Assembly (NCBI GenBank): GCA_030427245.1
Contig: JAUHXA010000002.1
Location: 184,328-248,327, forward strand
Source: Bacteroidia bacterium
GTDB taxonomy: Bacteria; Bacteroidota; Bacteroidia; Chitinophagales; UBA2359
Direction: 5' to 3'
Length of the DNA: 64,000 bases
A model generated the notes under the pieces. That model was not told where the DNA came from. It saw only the letters and a list, made by a program, of their open reading frames with translations, and searched no databases. The stretch's first letter is position 1. Every line of letters starts with the position of its first letter. This document shows positions 12,467-22,159 of the stretch, piece by piece. The position numbers and the translations under genes were made by a program.

Positions 12467-14626
12467 CTACACCAATTCCATCCTCTCTACAGCTACTCCA
12501 TTTTTTTCAGTTTGTTCGATTGGTAACGTAAAAAAGAAAGTACTTCCTTCTCCTACTGCCGATTCTACCCAGATTTGTCCCCCATGTTGTTCTACAATTT
12601 TTTTGCAGGTAGCCAAACCAATGCCTGTGCCTTCGTACTCCTCTTTGGTGTGGAGTCTTCGGAACATTTCAAATATTTTTTGTTGATAATCCAACTCGAT
12701 TCCAATACCATTGTCCTTAACAGAGAACACATAAGACTTATCTTTTTTCTGGCAATTGACCCACACTTCTGGAAATTCTGTTCTTTGGAATTTCAGTCCA
12801 TTGCTGATAAGATTTTGGAAGAGTTGTTGCATTTGTACTTGACTTGCCTTGATGGTAGGCAAAAATTGAACGTGTATTTTGGCGTTTTTTTGGTGAATAG
12901 CAGGTTGTAAGATTCCCACTACCGAATCTACAACTTCTTTGGTATTGATCCATTTTTTGGTCTGATCCTGTGAACCTACTCTGGAATACGCCAACAAATC
13001 GTCTAATAGTGCATACATCCGCTTCACTGCATCAGTAACAAAACCCATAAATTCTTGGGCATCTTGATCCAATTCTTTTTTGTAACGTCTGTCTAATAAG
13101 GATGTGTAAGAGCTAATGGTTCGGAGAGGTTCTTTGAGGTCATGAGAAGCAATGTAGGCAAATTGGCGAAGTTCGAGGTTGGAGTTTTCGAGCTGTTGGT
13201 TTTGTTCCTGTATCTGCTCATTTTTATTGGCAAGCAGCTTATTGAGTTCTATTTGTTGGTGATTACTGGATTCGAGTTCTTGGTTTTGTTGTTGAATTTG
13301 CTCGTTTTTGGTTTCCAATATCTCGTTGTATTGACGAAGTTTTCGGTAGTATAGGAATAGTGCTGTGGTGAAAATAGCAAAAAATGCGATGCCCATCAAA
13401 GAAGCATTTTGGTAAAATTTGATTTCCTGTTGTGTTTGGAGTAGTTCGTTTTCTTTCTTCAGGAATCTGATTTCACGTTCTTTTTTATACATTTCATAAT
13501 TGATCTTTGCTTGATTCATTTCCTGCAAAGTGTTCTCGTTCAGTAGAGAATCCTTTAGATTAAGGTAGGCAGATTGGTATTTGTAAGCGTTGGCGATGTC
13601 TCCATTTTTTCTATAGGCTTCTCCCATAGACTCATATACTTCTATGATTCGGGGACGAGACCCGATAGATTGAGCGATGTTTAAGGCTTCATTGAAATAT
13701 TGAAGTGCTTTTGAAAACTTATCTAAATCTACATGCAAATTTCCAATTGCCCTTAAACTTTCTACTTCTCCCCATTTGTCGCCCAATTCTTGCTTCAATT
13801 CCCAAGATTTGGTAAGATACTTCAATGCCAAATCACATTCTCCAATATTGAAGTAGTTTGAGCCAACATTGTGTGTCGCATAGGCTATTCCCAAAACATA
13901 GTCCATTTCTTCTGCCAACTCCAAGGCCCTCAAATTGTACTTTAAGGATTCTTCTATTCTATTTAGACGTTCATACGTACTTCCGATGGCGCCTAAACTT
14001 GCATAAGTTGCTGTCTGGTTCCCTATTTTTTCTGCAATTTTGAGGGTTCTGGTAAAATATTGAAGGGCACTCTCGAATCGAAATTGATAAAAATAAATAT
14101 TTCCAATTTCATATACAGAGCGTGCTACGCCCATTGAATCGGGAATCTCTTCGTAGATTTGCAGTGCTTGAAGACGGTAATTATAGGCCAACTTGAAGTT
14201 TCCCATTTCCTGATAAATCTTTGCCACGCTCCCCAAAGACTTTGCTTTTTTGTCTATGTCTAACTGCACTCCTTTGGTTTCCAAGAACAAAAAGTAATTG
14301 TCAAGAGCTCTATCAAACTCATTTAGTTTGTGATAAGTGCTTCCCAAATGAAAATACAACTGAATATCTTTATGACCAGATTTTTCAGTATATTTCAGAG
14401 CATCCTCATAATTTTTCTTTGCATAAGCATAATCCCGATTATCGAAATAAAAGTCTCCCATTTCCGAATAAGATTGTGAAACTTTTTGGTAATTCTGCTG
14501 TGTCTTTAAGATTTCTATTTGACTACACAAACTATCTACATTCATTGCAGAGATAGGCATGTAGGAAAAATACAACAAGGTAAAAATCCCTTTAATAATG
14601 ATATGGTTTAGTTGTTTGGTCTTCAT
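12467..14626 (-). CDS. TPR-containing sensor histidine kinase
   Basis: A 719-residue protein with a signal peptide/anchor (residues 1-28), a periplasmic region of about eight TPR repeats (residues 35-375, for example AYATHNVGSNYFNIGECDLALKYL), a membrane helix near residues 403-420, a glutamine/asparagine-rich coiled coil (about 430-485), a HisKA domain with phospho-acceptor H495 in ASHDLKEPLR, and a HATPase_c domain with the N box (FQNLISNGLKF), G1 (VKDNGIGI), F box (FEMFRRL) and G2 (GTGIGLA). It is complete as a kinase, but no response regulator is encoded nearby. The start lies 124 bases after the last peptide gene on the same strand, so it could be read from the peptide promoter. The periplasmic TPR array could bind a peptide; that link is inferred. 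Confidence 0.93.
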   Translation of the reverse strand: MKTKQLNHIIIKGIFTLLYFSYMPISAMNVDSLCSQIEILKTQQNYQKVSQSYSEMGDFYFDNRDYAYAKKNYEDALKYTEKSGHKDIQLYFHLGSTYHKLNEFDRALDNYFLFLETKGVQLDIDKKAKSLGSVAKIYQEMGNFKLAYNYRLQALQIYEEIPDSMGVARSVYEIGNIYFYQFRFESALQYFTRTLKIAEKIGNQTATYASLGAIGSTYERLNRIEESLKYNLRALELAEEMDYVLGIAYATHNVGSNYFNIGECDLALKYLTKSWELKQELGDKWGEVESLRAIGNLHVDLDKFSKALQYFNEALNIAQSIGSRPRIIEVYESMGEAYRKNGDIANAYKYQSAYLNLKDSLLNENTLQEMNQAKINYEMYKKEREIRFLKKENELLQTQQEIKFYQNASLMGIAFFAIFTTALFLYYRKLRQYNEILETKNEQIQQQNQELESSNHQQIELNKLLANKNEQIQEQNQQLENSNLELRQFAYIASHDLKEPLRTISSYTSLLDRRYKKELDQDAQEFMGFVTDAVKRMYALLDDLLAYSRVGSQDQTKKWINTKEVVDSVVGILQPAIHQKNAKIHVQFLPTIKASQVQMQQLFQNLISNGLKFQRTEFPEVWVNCQKKDKSYVFSVKDNGIGIELDYQQKIFEMFRRLHTKEEYEGTGIGLATCKKIVEQHGGQIWVESAVGEGSTFFFTLPIEQTEKNGVAVERMELV

Positions 14627-14680
14627 GGGTATAAAAAAATTTTACCTCAATAGAGTAAAAATTAAGTTGAAAGAACTAAT

Positions 14681-14713
14681 ACAGGCAACACATTAAATAA
14701 ATACATTGCCTGT
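14681..14713. repeat. Inverted repeat between last peptide gene and kinase
   Basis: ACAGGCAA at 14681-14688 pairs with TTGCCTGT at 14706-14713 across a 17-base AT-rich loop. Its T-run lies on the plus-strand side, so it is a poor terminator for the minus-strand peptide genes. It may be an attenuator or an mRNA-processing hairpin between peptides and kinase. Confidence 0.4.
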
Positions 14714-14749
14714 TTTTGATTCTATAATTGTTAAAATAATATATGCTGA

Positions 14750-14974
14750 CTATGGAGTATTACCATTACCATTGCCATGACCAGCACTATTGCCATTTCC
14801 AGCACTATTGCCATTTCCAGCACTATTGCCATTTCCAGCACCATTTTCTTCACCAAATGGAGGAGGATAACCATTGCCATTACCAGTGCCTCCACCGCCT
14901 TTCAAGGTATGTAACTTATTTAAATCAATGACTTTTACAGAATCTATATACTTGAATTTACTAAACTTGTTCAT
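14750..14974 (-). CDS. Double-glycine-leader peptide, type A copy 3 (Gly/Asn-rich tail)
   Basis: A 74-residue peptide. The leader, residues 1-27, ends in LKGG (K25-G26-G27) and is followed by G-G-T-G-N-G-N-G and the shared motif YPPPFGEE with Y36. The tail (residues 44-74) is a low-complexity Gly/Asn/Ser stretch encoded by an 18-base tandem repeat (GNGNSA three times), and the peptide ends GNGNTP. The leader resembles Bacteroidota GG-type natural-product precursors cleaved and exported by C39-peptidase ABC transporters. It is the last of six related genes and is most similar to the type A copies at 15280 and 15782. The core has no cysteine and a single tyrosine. Function is inferred: a secreted, possibly tyrosine-sulfated peptide. 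Confidence 0.8.
   Translation of the reverse strand: MNKFSKFKYIDSVKVIDLNKLHTLKGGGGTGNGNGYPPPFGEENGAGNGNSAGNGNSAGNGNSAGHGNGNGNTP
14783..14836. repeat. 18-base tandem repeat, three perfect copies, inside type A copy 3
   Basis: AGCACTATTGCCATTTCC occurs at 14783-14800, 14801-14818 and 14819-14836 with no mismatch, flanked by degenerate partial units. The unit is a multiple of three, so copy number can change without breaking the frame. Each unit encodes a rotation of GNGNSA. Confidence 0.95.
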
Positions 14975-15032
14975 GAGATAGAGTATTTAAATTAATAATT
15001 TTGTTTATACTAAAGTTAAAAATCAATGGGAT

Positions 15033-15176
15033 TTATTCCTCATCAAATGGGGGAGGATAACCATGACTTTTGCCTTTGTATAAAAGGTTTCCTCTACCCC
15101 CTTTTACAAAAGTGAATTCTTTTGAAGAAAGCAAATATTTGCTAAATTTTGCTTTCAGTTTTTTAAATGTAAACAT
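15033..15176 (-). CDS. Double-glycine-leader peptide, type B copy 3
   Basis: A 47-residue peptide starting at the ATG at 15176. The basic leader runs MFTFKKLKAKF...LLSSKEFTFVKGG, with G26-G27 as the predicted cleavage site. The core R-G-N-L-L-Y is followed by the type B motif KGKSHGYPPPFDE and a final E, with the key tyrosine at Y40. A second core tyrosine (Y33) precedes the motif. Nineteen bases upstream lies ATTCACTCTAA (minus strand), shared with type B copy 1. The final motif is identical in protein to copies 1 and 2 but differs from them at many third codon positions. It forms a pair with type A copy 3, 58 bases downstream. Confidence 0.78.
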   Translation of the reverse strand: MFTFKKLKAKFSKYLLSSKEFTFVKGGRGNLLYKGKSHGYPPPFDEE

Positions 15177-15194
15177 AATATTAAATTTATTAGA

Positions 15195-15205
15195 TTAGAG
15201 TGAAT
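15195..15205 (-). promoter_or_regulatory. Shared upstream box of type B peptide genes (copy 3)
   Basis: ATTCACTCTAA on the minus strand, 19 bases before the start codon. The identical 11-mer sits 20 bases before type B copy 1 (16206-16216). It is not a Shine-Dalgarno sequence. It may be part of a promoter or leader duplicated with the gene unit. Confidence 0.4.
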
Positions 15206-15279
15206 TTATAGAGAGCAAAGCGTCTACTTTTTATGAGAGCCCCTTACCCCCTATTAGATTGTTTTATTCCTTTTTAAAT

Positions 15280-15453
15280 CTATAAGATTGGAGGAACTGG
15301 GGCAAGTGGAGGTAAAGGAATTTCTCCTTCACCAAATGGCGGGGGATAACCATTTCCATTTCCAGTGCCGCCTCCGCCTTTGAAGGAATCTGCTTTGTCT
15401 GGAATAATGATTTTCACCGACTTAAGATGTTTGATTTTATTAAAACTTTTCAT
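15280..15453 (-). CDS. Double-glycine-leader peptide, type A copy 2 (proline-rich tail)
   Basis: A 57-residue peptide from the ATG at 15453. The leader MKSFNKIKHLKSVKIIIPDK...K ends in KGG (25-27) and is followed by G-G-T-G-N-G-N-G and Y36-P-P-P-F-G-E. The tail is short and proline/leucine-rich (GEIPLPPLAPVPPIL). The 16 bases around the start codon, read on the plus strand as TTTTCATGAGTCGAAA, are identical to those at type A copy 1. The leader and the motif up to GYPPPFGE are conserved among the three type A copies while the tails diverge completely. This suggests that the conserved part is the functional core and the tail is variable or removed. Confidence 0.8.
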   Translation of the reverse strand: MKSFNKIKHLKSVKIIIPDKADSFKGGGGTGNGNGYPPPFGEGEIPLPPLAPVPPIL

Positions 15454-15507
15454 GAGTCGAAACTTTTTTTATAATTAATGAGAATTTCAGTATGAATGTA
15501 ACCCGAT

Positions 15508-15648
15508 TTATACTTCATCGAATGGAGGTGGATATCCATGGCTTTTGCCTTTGTATAATCTCGCAAATCTGCCGCCTTTTACAAGGTTGGATTCCTTTTG
15601 GGTAAGCAAATAATTAGCTAATCGTTTTTTTAATTTAATTTTAAACAT
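15508..15648 (-). CDS. Double-glycine-leader peptide, type B copy 2
   Basis: A 46-residue peptide from the ATG at 15648. The leader MFKIKLKKRLANYLLTQKE...LVKGG (G25-G26) is followed by R-F-A-R-L-Y and the type B motif KGKSHGYPPPFDE, ending in V, with the key tyrosine Y39. It is strongly basic apart from the acidic end after the proline run. It pairs with type A copy 2, 54 bases downstream. The upstream sequence does not carry the ATTCACTCTAA box of the other two type B genes, so it may depend on read-through from the first unit. Confidence 0.78.
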   Translation of the reverse strand: MFKIKLKKRLANYLLTQKESNLVKGGRFARLYKGKSHGYPPPFDEV

Positions 15649-15781
15649 AATATATTGGATTTTTGCAATTTAATTGAAAATTAGACATAATCAGAAGGAA
15701 ACATAGCTTTTTACAGTGTGTACATCAAATGCCTATTTAACTTTACAAAGAGACGCACCTACTGTTTTTATGCTTAGCTTA

Positions 15782-15976
15782 TTAATCATTGTCATTTCCA
15801 AAAAGGCTATTCCAAATAGATTCCAATAATGAACCCAATGTTGCTCCTTCTTCACCAAATGGGGGTGGGTAGCCATTTCCGCATCCAATACCACCTCCAC
15901 CTTTGAGAGTACTTGCTTTGTCTGTGGTGATGATTTTCGTAGACTTAAGTTGTTTGATTTTATTAAAATTTTTCAT
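15782..15976 (-). CDS. Double-glycine-leader peptide, type A copy 1 (amphipathic tail)
   Basis: A 64-residue peptide from the ATG at 15976. The leader MKNFNKIKQLKSTKIITTDK ends in LKGG (25-27), then G-G-I-G-C-G-N-G and Y36-P-P-P-F-G-E-E. Its tail differs from the other type A copies: TLGSLLESIWNSLFGNDND is a plausible amphipathic helix, as seen in some bacteriocin-like peptides. C32 is the only cysteine in the three type A cores. The 16-base start region matches type A copy 2. The gap to the next gene (15649-15781) contains sequence loosely similar to the gap before type B copy 3, as expected if the two-gene unit was duplicated. Confidence 0.8.
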   Translation of the reverse strand: MKNFNKIKQLKSTKIITTDKASTLKGGGGIGCGNGYPPPFGEEGATLGSLLESIWNSLFGNDND

Positions 15977-16042
15977 GAGTCGAAATTTTCTTGAATAATT
16001 GAAAAAATAGAGAATAAAAACGTTAAATACATTTCACCAATC

Positions 16043-16186
16043 TTACTGTTCGTCGAATGGTGGAGGGTATCCGTGGCTTTTACCTTTTTCTCTTTCGAGC
16101 CACATGCCGCCTTTGATAAAGCTACATTCCTTTTTATTAAGGACATCTTTTGCTGTTAAGTTTTTCAGCTTTTTTAACATAACCAT
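16043..16186 (-). CDS. Double-glycine-leader peptide, type B copy 1 (first of the cluster)
   Basis: A 47-residue peptide if it starts at the ATG at 16186 (MVMLKKLK); an ATG at 16180 is also possible. The frame is open further upstream to 16231, but the extra residues do not match the other copies. The leader ends F-I-K-G-G (25-27), the core is M-W-L-E-R-E, and the motif KGKSHGYPPPFDE with Y40 is followed by a final Q. It heads the series of six, about 540 bases from the divergent sulfotransferase start. The 11-base box ATTCACTCTAA lies 20 bases upstream. Codons for the final motif differ synonymously from type B copies 2 and 3 at most positions. Confidence 0.78.
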   Translation of the reverse strand: MVMLKKLKNLTAKDVLNKKECSFIKGGMWLEREKGKSHGYPPPFDEQ

Positions 16187-16729
16187 AGTAAAATAATTTA
16201 AATTGTTAGAGTGAATCTTAGCAGCATGCACTCAAAAGATTTGATGAGGGAACAAAAAATACTTTTCATTGAAGTACAATATGCTAACTAATTACAATCA
16301 TTACTTTTCCAATATCATGCCATATTTGTCATAGTATTGTAATATAGAAAAACTTGATGCTATCCTTTACGAAAAATCACCCTAAACAACTCAAAACAAG
16401 CTAAATATACACATAAAGGATTCAATCAAATAAAATAAAATACTCTTAACATTTTATTATAGTTAACTCAATAGTCAATTCTTGTTTGTTGAGAGCACAA
16501 AAATTAGAATACATTATTTTCAATTTTCGTAGTTATCTCATAATTATCACTTTGCACTTTGCATAAAAACTTCTTCATTCAAAAAACGTTCCAGCGTTTA
16601 ATCAAGCTCGAAATAAAGGGTATCTTATAGCACGATTATTGCAATTATTCTGGCAGCCCTCTTTTTCCAACTTCCCCACGTTCTTATACAGCTAAAACAA
16701 TAATCTTACGCATTAAATTTTTGTCAAAC
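16187..16729. other. Divergent intergenic region between peptide cluster and sulfotransferase
   Basis: This 543-base AT-rich stretch separates the first peptide gene from the sulfotransferase on the opposite strand. No further peptide reading frame with a GG leader or a YPPP motif is visible on either strand. I see no clean TTTG/TAnnTTTG promoter. A short direct repeat CACTTTGCACTTTGCAT lies near 16550-16566 and TAAATTTTTG lies just before the sulfotransferase start. It presumably holds the promoters of both transcription units. Confidence 0.5.
16206..16216 (-). promoter_or_regulatory. Shared upstream box of type B peptide genes (copy 1)
   Basis: ATTCACTCTAA on the minus strand, 20 bases before the ATG at 16186 and identical to the box before type B copy 3. 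The equal distance from the start codon suggests a promoter or leader element rather than chance. Confidence 0.4.
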
Positions 16730-17545
16730 ATGGACCTAAATCATCTAAAACAATTTGTAAATCATTCGATAGTTGGCTACGGTGTTGAGGCATTGAGTTT
16801 TATCTCCTTTCCATTTATTGCAAAACAAACCCCTGACAAGAAATTTGTTTTGTTTAGTAGTGGTCGGGCTGGGAGTACACTTTTGGTAAAATTGTTGGAC
16901 AATCATTCACTGATTCAATGTGAAGGAGAAATATTGAGGCGAAAAATGTTAAACCCTTATGCTTATATTAAGAGAACTAGCCAAGTATCCAACAGTTCTG
17001 TTTTTGGCTTCAAACTCTTGTCCTATCAACTACAAGAACTTCAAACAAGCGTCAAAGACAAAAATAGATTTCTCCAAAATTTGGTAGAAGATGGTTTTCA
17101 AATCATTTATTTAGAACGAAAAAACATCCTTCGTCAAGCACTTTCTGTTATGTATGCTTATCACCGAGACCAATGGCATGTCAAAAAAGGACAAGACGTT
17201 GATGCCAGCAAAATGAAGATTGACCCTGTTGCTCTTCGAGATTGGATGGACGGTATTGAAAAATTGAAGGTTTTTGAGAAAAAAATGGTAGAAGTCCTAC
17301 CTCACCTTCACGTAGTGTATGAAGAGGATTTGAGTATCCCCGAACAACAGTCGGTAACGATTGAAATGGTAACAGATTTTTTAGAACTTCCCAATGAAGA
17401 GGTCAATAGCAACCTAAAAAGAGTGACTCCCAAAAACCTATCCAGTTTTATAGAAAATGTAGATGAAGTCATTCATTATTTAGGTGCCAGCAGATATCAC
17501 CAATACTTAGACAGTATCAGCAATTCCTTCAATACTTCTAGCTAG
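16730..17545 (+). CDS. Sulfotransferase, candidate peptide tyrosine sulfotransferase (RaxST-like role)
   Basis: A 271-residue protein from the ATG at 16730; a TTG nine bases earlier is in frame. The PAPS 5'-phosphosulfate loop is SSGRAGSTLL at residues 43-52, followed by LLDNHSLIQCEGEIL, the lid region seen in Stf0/Sulfotransfer_3-type enzymes. VFGFKLLSYQL (91-101) is a further family block. The 3'-phosphate site is YLERKNILRQALS with R130 and S139. Enzymes of this superfamily transfer sulfate from PAPS to sugars or tyrosines. Its place directly opposite six peptides with a conserved core tyrosine mirrors the raxX/raxST arrangement of Xanthomonas, so peptide tyrosine sulfation is proposed. 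A carbohydrate acceptor cannot be excluded. It is followed after 174 bases by the sigma/TonB-receptor gene. Confidence 0.85.
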   Translation: MDLNHLKQFVNHSIVGYGVEALSFISFPFIAKQTPDKKFVLFSSGRAGSTLLVKLLDNHSLIQCEGEILRRKMLNPYAYIKRTSQVSNSSVFGFKLLSYQLQELQTSVKDKNRFLQNLVEDGFQIIYLERKNILRQALSVMYAYHRDQWHVKKGQDVDASKMKIDPVALRDWMDGIEKLKVFEKKMVEVLPHLHVVYEEDLSIPEQQSVTIEMVTDFLELPNEEVNSNLKRVTPKNLSSFIENVDEVIHYLGASRYHQYLDSISNSFNTSS

Positions 17546-17719: not shown

Positions 17720-20700
17720 TTGAAATCCCAAACATTGAATCAAGTACCACAAACCATACAAGAATACCAACAAGCGTTTGAAGAATATTACCAACCCTTG
17801 TGTAATTTTGCTTACTCCTTTGTGAAAGACAGAGATGAGGCAGAAGATGTGGTACAAGCGGTATTTATCAATCTTTGGAAAAAACGAACATCAATCGAAA
17901 TCCAAAGCAAACTCTCCAGCTATTTGTTTTCAGCGACCAAAAACAACGCTTTGATGGTTCTTCGTCGTCAACAATATGAATCGAAGTATGTCGAACATAT
18001 TCAGCAACGTGCGCCTATAATCTATGAGGATGATACACAAGATGCAGAAGAACAACTGCTGCTAAAGGAGAAGATTTTTCAAGCAATTCAAACTTTGCCT
18101 CCTAAATGTCAGCAAATCTTCAAAATGAGTAAATTGAGTGGCTTAACTTACAAGGAAATTGCGAGCGACCTAAGCATTTCTGTTAAAACTGTAGAAAATC
18201 AAATGAGCAAAGCCCTGAAAATATTGCGAGAACAATTGAAATACATTTCTTACATACTGTTTTTCTTATTGCTGCTTACCGAAATTTTGTGGGCGCAAGA
18301 GGGCAGTTTATTGGATCAAAAAGTCAAAATATCTATAAAGCAAGGAAGTGTCCAACAAATTTTGGATTTAATTAGCAAAGAAGTCAATACCCCGATTGCC
18401 TACAGCTCCAATCAGATTTCGCTTCAAAAACAAATCCAATTAATCGGAACTGAAAACACTTTGGGCGAATACCTTCAAAGAATTGCCGATTTTGTGCCTA
18501 TCCGTATTGTAGAACGGAAACGCAAAATTTTGCTGGTTCCGCAACGAAAAAAAGAGAAAAGCCCCATCAATACTGAACATATAACAAAACCTCGCTCATC
18601 CTCTTCTACTCAAAAATATACTATAAGTGGTTATATCAAAGATTCAGAAAGCGGCGAAGTCTTGATTGGCGCAACGGTCTATGATTCGGAAAGCAAAAAA
18701 GGAACGAGTACCAATGTCTACGGATTTTACAGCCTTACACTCTCTAACCCAAATCCTGTTTTGATGGTGTCCTATGTTGGCTATGCTTCTAATAGTTTAC
18801 CTTTTGAATTGAATAAAAATAAGCAACAAGATATTTTTTTAAAAAGCAATACAGAACTGCAAGAAGTGGTCGTAAAAGCATCTGAAAGTGAACAAATTCA
18901 GGAATTGGAGCAAATGAGTAGCAATAAGTTGTACTCAAAAAAAATCAAACAACTACCCGTCTTGATGGGAGAAGCAGATGTTGTAAAATCTATCCAATTG
19001 TTGCCTGGCGTTCAGTCAGTCAATGAAAATACGAATGGATTGTATGTTCGAGGTGGTGGTCCCGATCAAAATCTAATGCTTTTGGATGGAGTAACGATTT
19101 ATGACAGTAATCACCTTTTTGGTTTCGTCTCTATTTTTGATGGAGATGCAATCAACAGTATCGAACTCATCAAAGGTGGATTTCCTGCCGAACATGGTGG
19201 CAGACTCTCCTCTATCTTAGATGTGAGGCTGAAGGAGGGCAATTATCAATCTTTTCATGCTGGCGCAACGATAGGACTTTTTTCTGCAAAGGCAACCATT
19301 GAAGGTCCTTTTTCTAAAGATAAGTCGTCTTTTCATTTTTCAGGGAGAAGCAGCTTGACTAACAATGACTTGGCTAAAACTCTCGTAGATGTGGGAGAAG
19401 ACAGTCATCTGGATTATGGTTTTTATGACCTCTACGGCAAAGTCAACTTTCGGATCTCGCCAAAATCTCGTCTTTTTCTGAGCGGTTACAGAGGTAAGGA
19501 TAGATTTTATACAGAGGCTACTCCTTATTTTCATGTCAGCGATAGTTATGGTAACTATCATGAAATTCAGCCATTTTGGAAAACCGATTTGGAGTGGAAC
19601 AATACTGTGGGTGCACTTAGATGGAATCAAATACTGAATGCCAAATTGTTTGCCAACTTTTCTATGTATTACAGCGATTATAAGTACAAATTTGGTAATC
19701 ATTATATCTCCAATACGCTTTCCTACAACAATCAAAACACCAATGACATTGTGCTGAAAGCCACATCTGATATCAGAGATGTGACCGTCAAAGCTGATTT
19801 CGACTTCTATCCTACTCACGGCCATCATTTGAAGTGGGGAATAGGATATACCAACCATGCCTTCACCCCCGGCATTGCCCGTTTTCGAGACAACAAAGAT
19901 GTCGAGATGGAATTTGAATTCACACAAGAGATTGGCTTAGAGAAAATTCCAGCAGATGACTATTATGTTTACTTTGAAGAAAATAGACAACTAAATAAAA
20001 AATGGAGCGTCAATTTCGGACTCCATTTGGCGGGTTTTGCTGCAGACCAAACCAATTACCTCTCTCTACAGCCTCGTCTTTCTACTCGTTATTTACTGAG
20101 TGAGTTTTCAGCACTGAAAGCTTCTTTTGCTCGAATGACCCAATTTGTACATCTGATCAATACACCTTGGTTGGGAATGCCTTCCGACTTATGGGTACCG
20201 AGTTCGAGTACACTTAAACCCAAAAATGCCAATCAATATGCAGTGGGTTATGTACATCGTTTTCCAGAACTTTTCGACCTGAACATTGAAGCTTATCACA
20301 AAAAATTTGAGAACTTGCTGACATTTAGCCACAATCCCAATCTTTGGATGCGCCAACGATTACCCAATTGGCAGCAAGAATTGGAGCGTGGAGGTGGCAA
20401 GGCATCTGGCATTGAAGTCTTGTTGGAGCGGAAAGTGGGACAAACTACAGGTTGGATTGCCTACACACTCGCAAAGACGGAACGACAATTTGAAAGCCTC
20501 AATAATGGCGAAAAATTTCCTTATGAATACGACCGACGACACGACATTAGCGTGGCATTGACCCAACAATTGTCTCCAAATGTAAGTATCGGAGGAGTTT
20601 GGGTATTTGCAACAGGCAATGTTACAACGCTCACAATTGACGAATCGAGCAGTCAATTGGTCATAGATGGAACAAACAAAACTACGCTATCCCATGAGGA

Positions 20701-20983
20701 CTTCAACAGTGATTTGGAGCGCAACAACTATCGTTTACCACCGTATCACCGACTGGATATTTCGATTAATTGGGAACACTCTATCCCGATACTAAACGAT
20801 TGGAAGGGAATACTAAAAGCGGGTTTCTACAACTTATACAATCGTGAAAATCCTGTCTATATCAATCAGTATGAAAGCAACAGTAATACAGATAGCTCCA
20901 CTGAAGAACCTAATATCTTAGGACTCTACGAAGTCAATTTATTACCTCGATTGCCTTTTGTTACTTATAAGTTAGAATTTTAA
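17720..20983 (+). CDS. In-frame fusion of ECF sigma factor and TonB-dependent receptor
   Basis: A 1087-residue reading frame joining two normally separate proteins. Residues 20-85 are ECF sigma region 2 (LCNFAYSFVKDRDEAEDVVQ) and 113-175 region 4 (LPPKCQQIF...SGLTYKEIASDLSISVKTVENQMSKAL). Residues 174-193 are hydrophobic and end in a signal-peptidase-like site (FFLLLLTEILWAQ). Then follow an STN/secretin-like signalling domain (200-275), a carboxypeptidase-regulatory-like domain (300-375: ISGYIKDSESGEVLIGATV), a TonB plug (LYVRGGGPDQNLMLLDGV, about 441-458) and an outer-membrane barrel to the end. The first half works in the cytoplasm, the second in the outer membrane, so one intact chain cannot do both unless cleaved. 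An internal ATG at 18203, just before the hydrophobic stretch, could start a separate receptor. FecR follows. Confidence 0.88.
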   Translation: MKSQTLNQVPQTIQEYQQAFEEYYQPLCNFAYSFVKDRDEAEDVVQAVFINLWKKRTSIEIQSKLSSYLFSATKNNALMVLRRQQYESKYVEHIQQRAPIIYEDDTQDAEEQLLLKEKIFQAIQTLPPKCQQIFKMSKLSGLTYKEIASDLSISVKTVENQMSKALKILREQLKYISYILFFLLLLTEILWAQEGSLLDQKVKISIKQGSVQQILDLISKEVNTPIAYSSNQISLQKQIQLIGTENTLGEYLQRIADFVPIRIVERKRKILLVPQRKKEKSPINTEHITKPRSSSSTQKYTISGYIKDSESGEVLIGATVYDSESKKGTSTNVYGFYSLTLSNPNPVLMVSYVGYASNSLPFELNKNKQQDIFLKSNTELQEVVVKASESEQIQELEQMSSNKLYSKKIKQLPVLMGEADVVKSIQLLPGVQSVNENTNGLYVRGGGPDQNLMLLDGVTIYDSNHLFGFVSIFDGDAINSIELIKGGFPAEHGGRLSSILDVRLKEGNYQSFHAGATIGLFSAKATIEGPFSKDKSSFHFSGRSSLTNNDLAKTLVDVGEDSHLDYGFYDLYGKVNFRISPKSRLFLSGYRGKDRFYTEATPYFHVSDSYGNYHEIQPFWKTDLEWNNTVGALRWNQILNAKLFANFSMYYSDYKYKFGNHYISNTLSYNNQNTNDIVLKATSDIRDVTVKADFDFYPTHGHHLKWGIGYTNHAFTPGIARFRDNKDVEMEFEFTQEIGLEKIPADDYYVYFEENRQLNKKWSVNFGLHLAGFAADQTNYLSLQPRLSTRYLLSEFSALKASFARMTQFVHLINTPWLGMPSDLWVPSSSTLKPKNANQYAVGYVHRFPELFDLNIEAYHKKFENLLTFSHNPNLWMRQRLPNWQQELERGGGKASGIEVLLERKVGQTTGWIAYTLAKTERQFESLNNGEKFPYEYDRRHDISVALTQQLSPNVSIGGVWVFATGNVTTLTIDESSSQLVIDGTNKTTLSHEDFNSDLERNNYRLPPYHRLDISINWEHSIPILNDWKGILKAGFYNLYNRENPVYINQYESNSNTDSSTEEPNILGLYEVNLLPRLPFVTYKLEF

Positions 20984-21124
20984 ATACTTCAAAGTGATTT
21001 CGACAGATCCATCTGCGATGTAAGATTTTTGAAGCTTGATAGGAGATTTTTGGTTCAAAAAATAGGGGTAAAGCTATTTTGGTGCATCTATTGAGTGGAT
21101 AAAATAGCAAGATTTCATTTGATT

Positions 21125-22159
21125 ATGGACGAATATACAATTTTAAAATACCTGAATAATACTGCTTCACAGAGCGAAATTAGGGCTGTGAAGAATTGGA
21201 TTGCCGAAAAAAAATCTCATCAGGAAGAGTTTGAACGGTTGAAAAAACTATGGGAAACAAGTGAACAACTTTCTGATTACCAATCTTATGACACGAACGC
21301 TGCTTGGAACAAAATTCAACCCATTATTTTGGTTCCAGAAGCCTCTTCAAACTCAAAGCCTACTGCCAAACGAATTCCATTACCCAATCAAAATTCTTCC
21401 AAATCAAACCGTTCTTTTGTTCTGCAAATAGCGGCTGGCTTTTTAGTTTTCTTAATGGTTGGATTCTTGTTTTACGCCCTTTTATCTAACGATAATTCAG
21501 GTAACACATTGACTTATAAAACGGTAGAGAGTAAAGATAGCTTACTAAAAATTCCGTTATCAGATGGTTCGGTTGTTTCTCTCAATCAATACAGTACACT
21601 GAAATATCCTACTACTTTTTCTTCCGAAAACCGAAAAGTAATCCTAACTGGTGAGGCTTTTTTTGAAGTTGCTGAAAATCGGGCAAAGCCTTTCATCATT
21701 GAAGCTGGAGCTACAAATATAAAAGTTTTGGGTACTTCCTTCAATGTAAATAGTGCCAATCAAGAACATATTGAAGTGACGGTGGCTAGCGGGAAAGTGC
21801 AGTTTTATAGTAAGGAAGATGATAAGGAAATGGTGGTTTTGGAGAAAGGTGAAAAAGGGCTTTTTGAAAACAATGTGGTTAGAAAGGATAAGAATACCGA
21901 TCCCAATTTCTTATCGTGGAAAACGGGAATATTGGAATTCAAAAATCAAACTTTATCAAGCATATTTGCGACAACGTACCATCATTATGGTATAAAAATA
22001 CTTATTGACCCATCCAGTGACATTTCACATTGCAAATATACAAGTGAGTTTGATAATCAAAGCATTGAAGCCATATTGAAGGAAATTGCAGATTATTTTG
22101 GCTTTACTTATATTCGAAATGGTGATGAGTATGTTTTGAAGGGAGATGGATGTGATTAA
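21125..22159 (+). CDS. FecR-type anti-sigma factor (DUF4974)
   Basis: A 344-residue protein from the ATG at 21125; a GTG at 21095 is in frame, but the ATG matches the family start (MDEYTILKYLNNTASQSEI). The N-terminal cytoplasmic anti-sigma domain binds an ECF factor, one membrane helix follows (about residues 98-120, LQIAAGFLVFLMVGFLFYALL), then the periplasmic FecR domain (YKTVESKDSLLKIPLSDGSVVSLNQYSTLKY...GEAFFEV) and the C-terminal DUF4974 (LEFKNQTLSSIFATTYHHYGIKI). In the Fec model the receptor STN domain contacts the periplasmic part. The usual Bacteroidota order is sigma, FecR, receptor; here FecR comes after a sigma-receptor fusion. A strong terminator follows. Confidence 0.93.
   Translation: MDEYTILKYLNNTASQSEIRAVKNWIAEKKSHQEEFERLKKLWETSEQLSDYQSYDTNAAWNKIQPIILVPEASSNSKPTAKRIPLPNQNSSKSNRSFVLQIAAGFLVFLMVGFLFYALLSNDNSGNTLTYKTVESKDSLLKIPLSDGSVVSLNQYSTLKYPTTFSSENRKVILTGEAFFEVAENRAKPFIIEAGATNIKVLGTSFNVNSANQEHIEVTVASGKVQFYSKEDDKEMVVLEKGEKGLFENNVVRKDKNTDPNFLSWKTGILEFKNQTLSSIFATTYHHYGIKILIDPSSDISHCKYTSEFDNQSIEAILKEIADYFGFTYIRNGDEYVLKGDGCD

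Follow-up and report, generated by a model that had tools for sequence, protein, structure and literature searches.

The RaxX/RaxST/RaxAB system of Xanthomonas combines a small precursor peptide with a double-glycine (GG) leader and a YPPP core, a tyrosylprotein-type sulfotransferase whose gene is divergent from that of the precursor, and C39-type export. According to passages of PMC6637879, raxX is reported in Xanthomonas only, and none of the raxST homologues of diverse bacteria is associated with raxX. Similar features, with predicted C39-type export, are found in a 64,000-nucleotide stretch (hereafter the window) of the genome of a member of the Bacteroidia (Chitinophagales, UBA2359; GenBank assembly GCA_030427245.1, contig JAUHXA010000002.1, positions 184,328 to 248,327), where six small precursor genes with leaders ending in Lys-Gly-Gly (KGG) face a sulfotransferase gene that an initial annotation had assigned to a RaxX/RaxST-like system. 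The window differs in having six peptides of two types, no clustered transporter, and an array placed upstream of a gene for a histidine kinase with tetratricopeptide repeats (TPR). Compared by the motif quoted for RaxX in that annotation (D-Y-P-P-P-G) only, the window peptides also differ in the flanks of YPPP, where all 13 aligned type A and B sequences have Gly at −1 and Phe at +4. Because no RaxAB-like transporter is encoded in the cluster and the peptides fit another family, of KGG precursors with proline cores, the RaxX label is an analogy at most.

In Gram-positive bacteria, the double-glycine pheromone ComC is paired with ComD, a histidine kinase with a polytopic sensor. A GG-leader peptide gene likewise adjoins a histidine-kinase gene in the window and at five further closely related kinases of the same genome (6/6), but the TPR sensor of the window kinase lies between an N-terminal hydrophobic stretch and one transmembrane (TM) helix, the putative ligands have proline cores, the exporter is encoded elsewhere, and a sulfotransferase is added. 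One related peptide scored 17.1 bits with the Pfam model of the ComC leader, under the cut-off of 20.4. TPR domains also bind small signal peptides in the RRNPP/Rgg receptors; these are cytoplasmic, whereas the TPR region of the window kinase is predicted to be extracytoplasmic. For Bacteroidales, PMC10352776 reports GG-motif precursors of ribosomally synthesized and post-translationally modified peptides (RiPPs) near genes for TPR proteins or for histidine kinases and response regulators, and its authors suggest possible signalling. The general idea is thereby anticipated, but the portions of that paper at hand describe neither the proline-core family nor a rule that precursor genes stand next to TPR-kinase genes, and the word sulfotransferase is absent from its main text. 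In the open-licence literature, no title or abstract was found that describes a module of peptide, TPR kinase and sulfotransferase.

The peptide array and its neighbours

The whole locus is read here, with a probability of about 0.47, as a set of proline-core peptide signals with a dedicated TPR kinase, the ligands being predicted to be Tyr-sulfated. Before export, the sulfotransferase would modify the precursor at its core Tyr, in the cytoplasm; cleavage of the leader after GG and transport of the peptide would fall to a C39-peptidase ABC exporter whose gene lies elsewhere in the genome; and the TPR region of the kinase, probably outside the inner membrane, would bind the mature peptide and thereby change the kinase output. 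Export as GG peptides is predicted with considerable confidence and sulfation of the core Tyr is probable, while sensing by the adjacent kinase is only slightly favoured. The genes concerned are the following.

12467-14626, minus strand: TPR histidine kinase of 719 amino acids (TPR region, TM helix, HisKA with SHDLKEP H-box, HATPase_c), the predicted receptor
14681-14713, minus strand: hairpin of 14 pairs between A1 and the kinase gene, a possible terminator
14750-14974, minus strand: A1 precursor, 74 amino acids; KGG leader, GYPPPFGEE, Gly/Asn-rich tail
15033-15176, minus strand: B1 precursor, 47 amino acids; KGG leader, C-terminal GYPPPFDEE
15280-15453, minus strand: A2 precursor, 57 amino acids; GYPPPFGE, proline-rich tail; homologues P0066 and P0067
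15508-15648, minus strand: B2 precursor, 46 amino acids; C-terminal GYPPPFDEV
15782-15976, minus strand: A3 precursor, 64 amino acids; GYPPPFGEE, amphipathic-looking tail
16043-16186, minus strand: B3 precursor, 47 amino acids; C-terminal GYPPPFDEQ
16730 (ATG, likelier) or 16721 (TTG) to 17545, plus strand: sulfotransferase that uses 3′-phosphoadenosine 5′-phosphosulfate (PAPS), divergent from the array

All six minus-strand open reading frames (ORFs) of the initial annotation are present with their KGG leaders and GYPPPF(G/D)E cores, in both peptide types, and its Tyr positions match the translations (residue 36 in type A; 40, 39 and 40 in type B). Its description in terms of multiple copies and two types stands, with the additions that one B and one A gene together form the repeating unit and that a kinase gene had been missed. 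Read on the minus strand from 16186 to 14750, the order is B3-A3-B2-A2-B1-A1, three tandem pairs in strict alternation, and the kinase gene follows on the same strand 123 nucleotides beyond A1. Every precursor has a basic leader of 26-27 residues with KGG at its end. Type A continues after the leader with GGTGNGNGYPPPFGEE, subject to small changes, and then a variable tail, while type B has about 11 residues before the C-terminal GYPPPFDE and a last residue E, V or Q.

A scan of the 7.58-Mb genome for the degenerate codons of GYPPPF(D/G)E gave six matches, all at the array (reversed control, none), and the 98 other relatives and 294 other class members scanned gave none; the full sets of 99 and 295 each include the window genome and have a further seven genomes in common. 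Any two copies are separated by two to six synonymous changes over the eight codons of the core, with a residue change solely at the G/D position. These scans and the synonymous character of the differences indicate that the peptide genes are real and under selection, not chance ORFs. Tyr, PPP and Phe are invariant in 13 of 13 aligned type A and B sequences; the type A tails vary and, by eye, fall into three kinds (Gly/Asn-rich, Pro-rich, amphipathic) that recur between assemblies. Profile scans gave no family model above its cut-off for the window peptides: matches to Pfam TrAA12 and DUF5982 were rejected as below cut-off, and the leader model TIGR04149, for GG RiPPs modified by radical S-adenosylmethionine enzymes, gave 12.4 bits with B1 and 23.8 with the best related peptide against a cut-off of 25. 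A search for promoters of the Bacteroidota type yielded nothing convincing. In the kinase, one segment (amino acids 408-426) is above the TM threshold and the TPR region precedes it; this helix and the N-terminal hydrophobic stretch place the TPR region probably outside the cytoplasm.

Precursor genes beside TPR kinases

A peptide-profile search of the same genome found three more KGG-leader genes, two on contig C8 and one on C12, each of which precedes a TPR-HisKA-HATPase kinase gene on the same strand. In the window and the stretches retrieved for kinases and other genes of this genome, a KGG-type gene stands at most 260 bp upstream of all six kinases of the close group (the window kinase included), of one of 10 distant TPR kinases, of none of 25 TPR-less kinases and of two of 177 other genes, both apparently spurious (Fisher 2.7e-10 for 6/6 versus 2/202; only genes with at least 450 bp of sequence before them were counted). 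Four of the six close kinases (the window, C8 twice, C12) were reached via the window or peptide similarity; the subset found kinase-first, on C31 and on C120 with the core GFIPPPSW, gives 2/2 versus 2/202 (p 2.9e-4). The criteria of this count and of the first count in other genomes were fixed after the first peptide/kinase loci had been seen. An ORF that by eye resembles a SulP-type anion transporter (L056 4542-6281, G000:C8) is divergent from the C8 peptide/kinase pairs.

When that criterion is applied to other genomes, 8 of 31 kinase loci are positive. A larger set of loci, scored by a criterion relaxed once the data were known, has a KGG-type gene within 310 bp upstream at 17 of 50 kinase loci (14 genomes), compared with one of 50 downstream, itself a KGG-CPPP gene, and three of 50 on the opposite strand. 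For this set, six duplicate loci were skipped, L153 was dropped as having no closed kinase ORF, and for L129 the start of the kinase was assigned manually; L159, with a KGG-GCPPP peptide 827 bp upstream, and L131 and L133, with GG ORFs at about 500-560 bp, were counted as misses. Proline entered neither criterion, and the upstream cores have PP in 17 of 17 cases and PPP in 11 (examples are GCPPPIKDD, GCPPPHASVM, GNGNGNNGCPPPWMT, TGNGGGIPPPTG and CPPPDPED). Two loci of one genus, L163 (G405) and L164 (G485), have KGG precursors with four tandem GNPPDWD copies just upstream of a TPR kinase. Another, L191 (G477:C97, 8090-12864), has five KGG peptide genes between or beside two TPR kinases, three of them ending in CPPPDPED, and is a parallel to the six-peptide array of the window. 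When 396 genomes of the order were searched peptide-first, 51 had a match at E up to 0.05 (profile sources included), and at G655, a locus outside the search profile, a TPR-kinase gene is preceded by genes for two KGG peptides (CPPPWED, CPPPWEEEN). Two peptide matches from other searches were rejected, one on a viral contig (L051) as a fortuitous hit antisense to a gene in a phage-like region, the other (G643) as lying inside a protease-like ORF. As a separate observation, the GNPPDWD repeats are reminiscent of multi-copy pheromone precursors.

The residue before PPP is Tyr in all six cores at the sulfotransferase locus, in none of 18 other distinct kinase-linked cores (Cys 12, Ile 3, Lys 2, Asp 1) and in none of six unlinked cores, one opposite-strand reading at L187 having been removed from the count by hand. 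The GNGHGCPPPF of G647 is close to the GNGNGYPPPF of the window, and the stretch fetched there has no such kinase. On these comparisons, the window peptides are best read as members of a KGG proline-core family that is often kinase-linked, and the locus as a peptide/TPR-kinase module that became a six-peptide, Tyr-bearing version with its own sulfotransferase. Replacement of Cys by Tyr together with recruitment of a sulfotransferase would account simply for the occurrence of both at this locus.

A wider and more tentative proposal, for which the odds are rather poor, is that a peptide-hormone system of Bacteroidota not yet described is at hand, with KGG precursors, cores of the form C/Y/I-PPP-aromatic/acidic, extracytoplasmic TPR receptor kinases, parallel multi-peptide arrays and tandem-repeat precursors, in which the window lineage exchanged Cys for Tyr, recruited a sulfotransferase and came to have six ligands for one receptor. 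If the reading of the locus as a sulfated-signal module is true, these Bacteroidota would have a peptide language that can be read from the genome, ligand genes adjoining receptor genes, the predicted bacterial Tyr sulfation of secreted peptides would extend beyond Xanthomonas, and the role of bacterial sulfotyrosine peptides could be tested where the likely receptor is bacterial.

Sulfotransferase, export and alternative readings

The divergent gene does encode a PAPS-type sulfotransferase, as initially annotated: the protein has the superfamily's 5′-phosphosulfate-binding loop, catalytic base, 3′-phosphate-binding Arg/Ser and sulfotransferase fold, with conserved catalytic positions, and the genome encodes an adenosine 5′-phosphosulfate (APS) kinase, which points to a PAPS route. 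Protein searches returned 64 proteins at E ≤0.001 among 432 candidates for the enzyme, eight at E up to 1 among nine candidates for A2 (itself included), and for type B only the query (1/1 candidates). The type A homologues P0066 (R3E32_08955) and P0069 (R3E32_08945), of a Chitinophagales metagenome-assembled genome, are listed, like the 72% identical enzyme P0006 (R3E32_08965), on a 3,604,961-base contig. The type A homologues P0067, P0070 and P0071 and the 80% identical enzyme P0004 are each listed on a 17,078-base contig. Judging from contig sizes and locus tags, peptides and enzyme thus appear to share a contig in two further assemblies, and if the R3E32 tags run in steps of five there would be one gene between each of the three, as expected for B genes. 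The initial annotation had named as fatal to its proposal that YPPPF peptides of relatives never co-occur with the sulfotransferase; in these two assemblies they appear to do so, and Tyr sulfation of the core is on that account a fair prediction from sequence.

The homologue P0068 is on a contig of 1,118 bases, too short to show neighbours. Besides the query, six full-length relatives of the enzyme have at least 63% identity; P0002 and P0005 are on contigs shorter than 1.5 kb, and no peptide is listed on the contigs of P0003 (5,859 bases) and P0007 (14,925 bases), where one could be hidden, as only the longest contig is displayed per protein cluster. Two distant sulfotransferases (40% and 31% identity) are on plasmids, and the enzyme search of viral contigs gave no confirmed locus. 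A second sulfotransferase, 27% identical, stands among glycosyltransferase-like ORFs at L047 (G000:C26), probably in a glycan cluster.

The window encodes no C39 transporter, in agreement with the initial annotation. On contigs other than C173, that of the window, the genome encodes three C39-ABC proteins (C83, C160 and C180); an HlyD-type adaptor is encoded adjacent to each or one gene away. A KGG-leader gene with a weak leader match to the window profile (E 0.016) is divergently oriented to the C180 gene.

Several observations count against the reading of the locus as sulfated signals with a dedicated kinase. At 33 of the 50 homologous kinase loci, 11 of them from G029, there is no such peptide within 310 bp, and among the 17 positives L129, L130 and L132 are of one genus, L163 and L164 of another, and L173 was first met via its peptide. 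Six fetched stretches (L227, L230, L231, L234, L235, L237) have KGG peptides with PP or PPP and no such kinase, so the core is not tied to the TPR kinase alone; likewise, Tyr can occur without the enzyme, since none of the ORFs near a Tyr-PP peptide of G477 (GYPPYQP) shows a sulfotransferase P-loop motif. The N-terminal hydrophobic stretch of the window kinase was seen by eye and is below the TM-scan threshold, and the L132 kinase has no TM peak there. Given the hairpin in the gap, the array and the kinase gene may be separate transcripts: 14660-14752 folds at −16.5 kcal/mol (z −2.19; 5 of 200 shuffles as stable), and a terminator scan gave two sites against a shuffle mean of 1.9, no excess. 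No output regulator was identified. The contig of the type A homologue P0072 (143,801 bases) fits no listed sulfotransferase contig, the link in the two further assemblies covers peptides and enzyme with the kinase beyond view, and the nearest fold match of the enzyme is Stf0, a trehalose sulfotransferase, with the tyrosylprotein sulfotransferase TPST behind.

This last point bears on the alternative that survives best, though unlikely: that the sulfotransferase acts on a glycan or lipid, its placement being coincidental, and that the TPR kinase senses the peptides in unsulfated form. Such a role would agree with the sugar-nucleotide and glycosyltransferase-like genes recognised by eye at 7.7-12.4 kb, and with the absence of a YPPP core from the GG-bearing small ORFs listed within 5 kb of distant sulfotransferases (27 stretches, 20 loci, some truncated; 29-43% identity). 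A coincidental placement is at odds with the apparent retention of this adjacency in two further assemblies, whose enzymes are 72-80% identical, and with the confinement of Tyr before PPP to the sulfotransferase-linked cores (6/6, against 0/18 and 0/6).

Less likely again is a multi-peptide bacteriocin cluster, in which the sulfotransferase would decorate six antimicrobial peptides and the kinase merely regulate their production. GG leaders, multiple copies, two strictly alternating types and the one amphipathic-looking A tail would suit it, and one related peptide exceeds the NCBIfam bacteriocin leader cut-off (TIGR01847, 16.0 versus 15.7), but no immunity gene was recognised by eye, the cores are short, hydrophilic and proline-rich, and the four tandem GNPPDWD heptamers of two relatives would fit a signal better than a membrane toxin. 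A true RaxX-like system, with a Tyr-sulfated peptide acting on a eukaryotic host receptor and the neighbouring kinase irrelevant, is improbable: GG leader, YPPP core, divergent sulfotransferase and C39 exporters in the genome are as it would have them, but the cluster lacks a transporter, the YPPP flanks depart from the quoted motif, related KGG-PPP peptides lie upstream of TPR kinases in other genomes, and at none of six such loci examined more widely was a sulfotransferase P-loop motif flagged.

A comparison in which PP occurred in one of 14 GG peptides without such a kinase within 1.5 kb was discarded as evidence: L225 and L226 (no PP) had been excluded by hand, the profile contained PPP, and six of seven further no-kinase KGG stretches do have PP. 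L233 is a no-kinase stretch whose KGG peptide is without PP. Two further groups of small genes were noted. L237 (G474:C23) has seven tandem GG-leader genes with a common C-terminal DCCGT motif and no TPR kinase match. At L205, L206, L208, L211 and L214 a group of KGG-leader peptides ends in Pro-Gln (ILPQ, FAPQ, KVPQ, FIPQ), with a weak match to the kinase TPR region alongside in four of the five.

Other genes in the window

On the plus strand at 17720-20983, an ORF of 1087 amino acids fuses in frame a complete extracytoplasmic function (ECF) sigma factor (TIGR02985, amino acids 15-173) and a TonB-dependent receptor. The fusion is odd in that one part would be cytoplasmic and the other in the outer membrane; the TonB part shows a signal-peptide-like stretch of its own, and translation might also start internally at a TTG. 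It is followed at 21095-22159 by a gene that by eye resembles a FecR-type anti-sigma factor.

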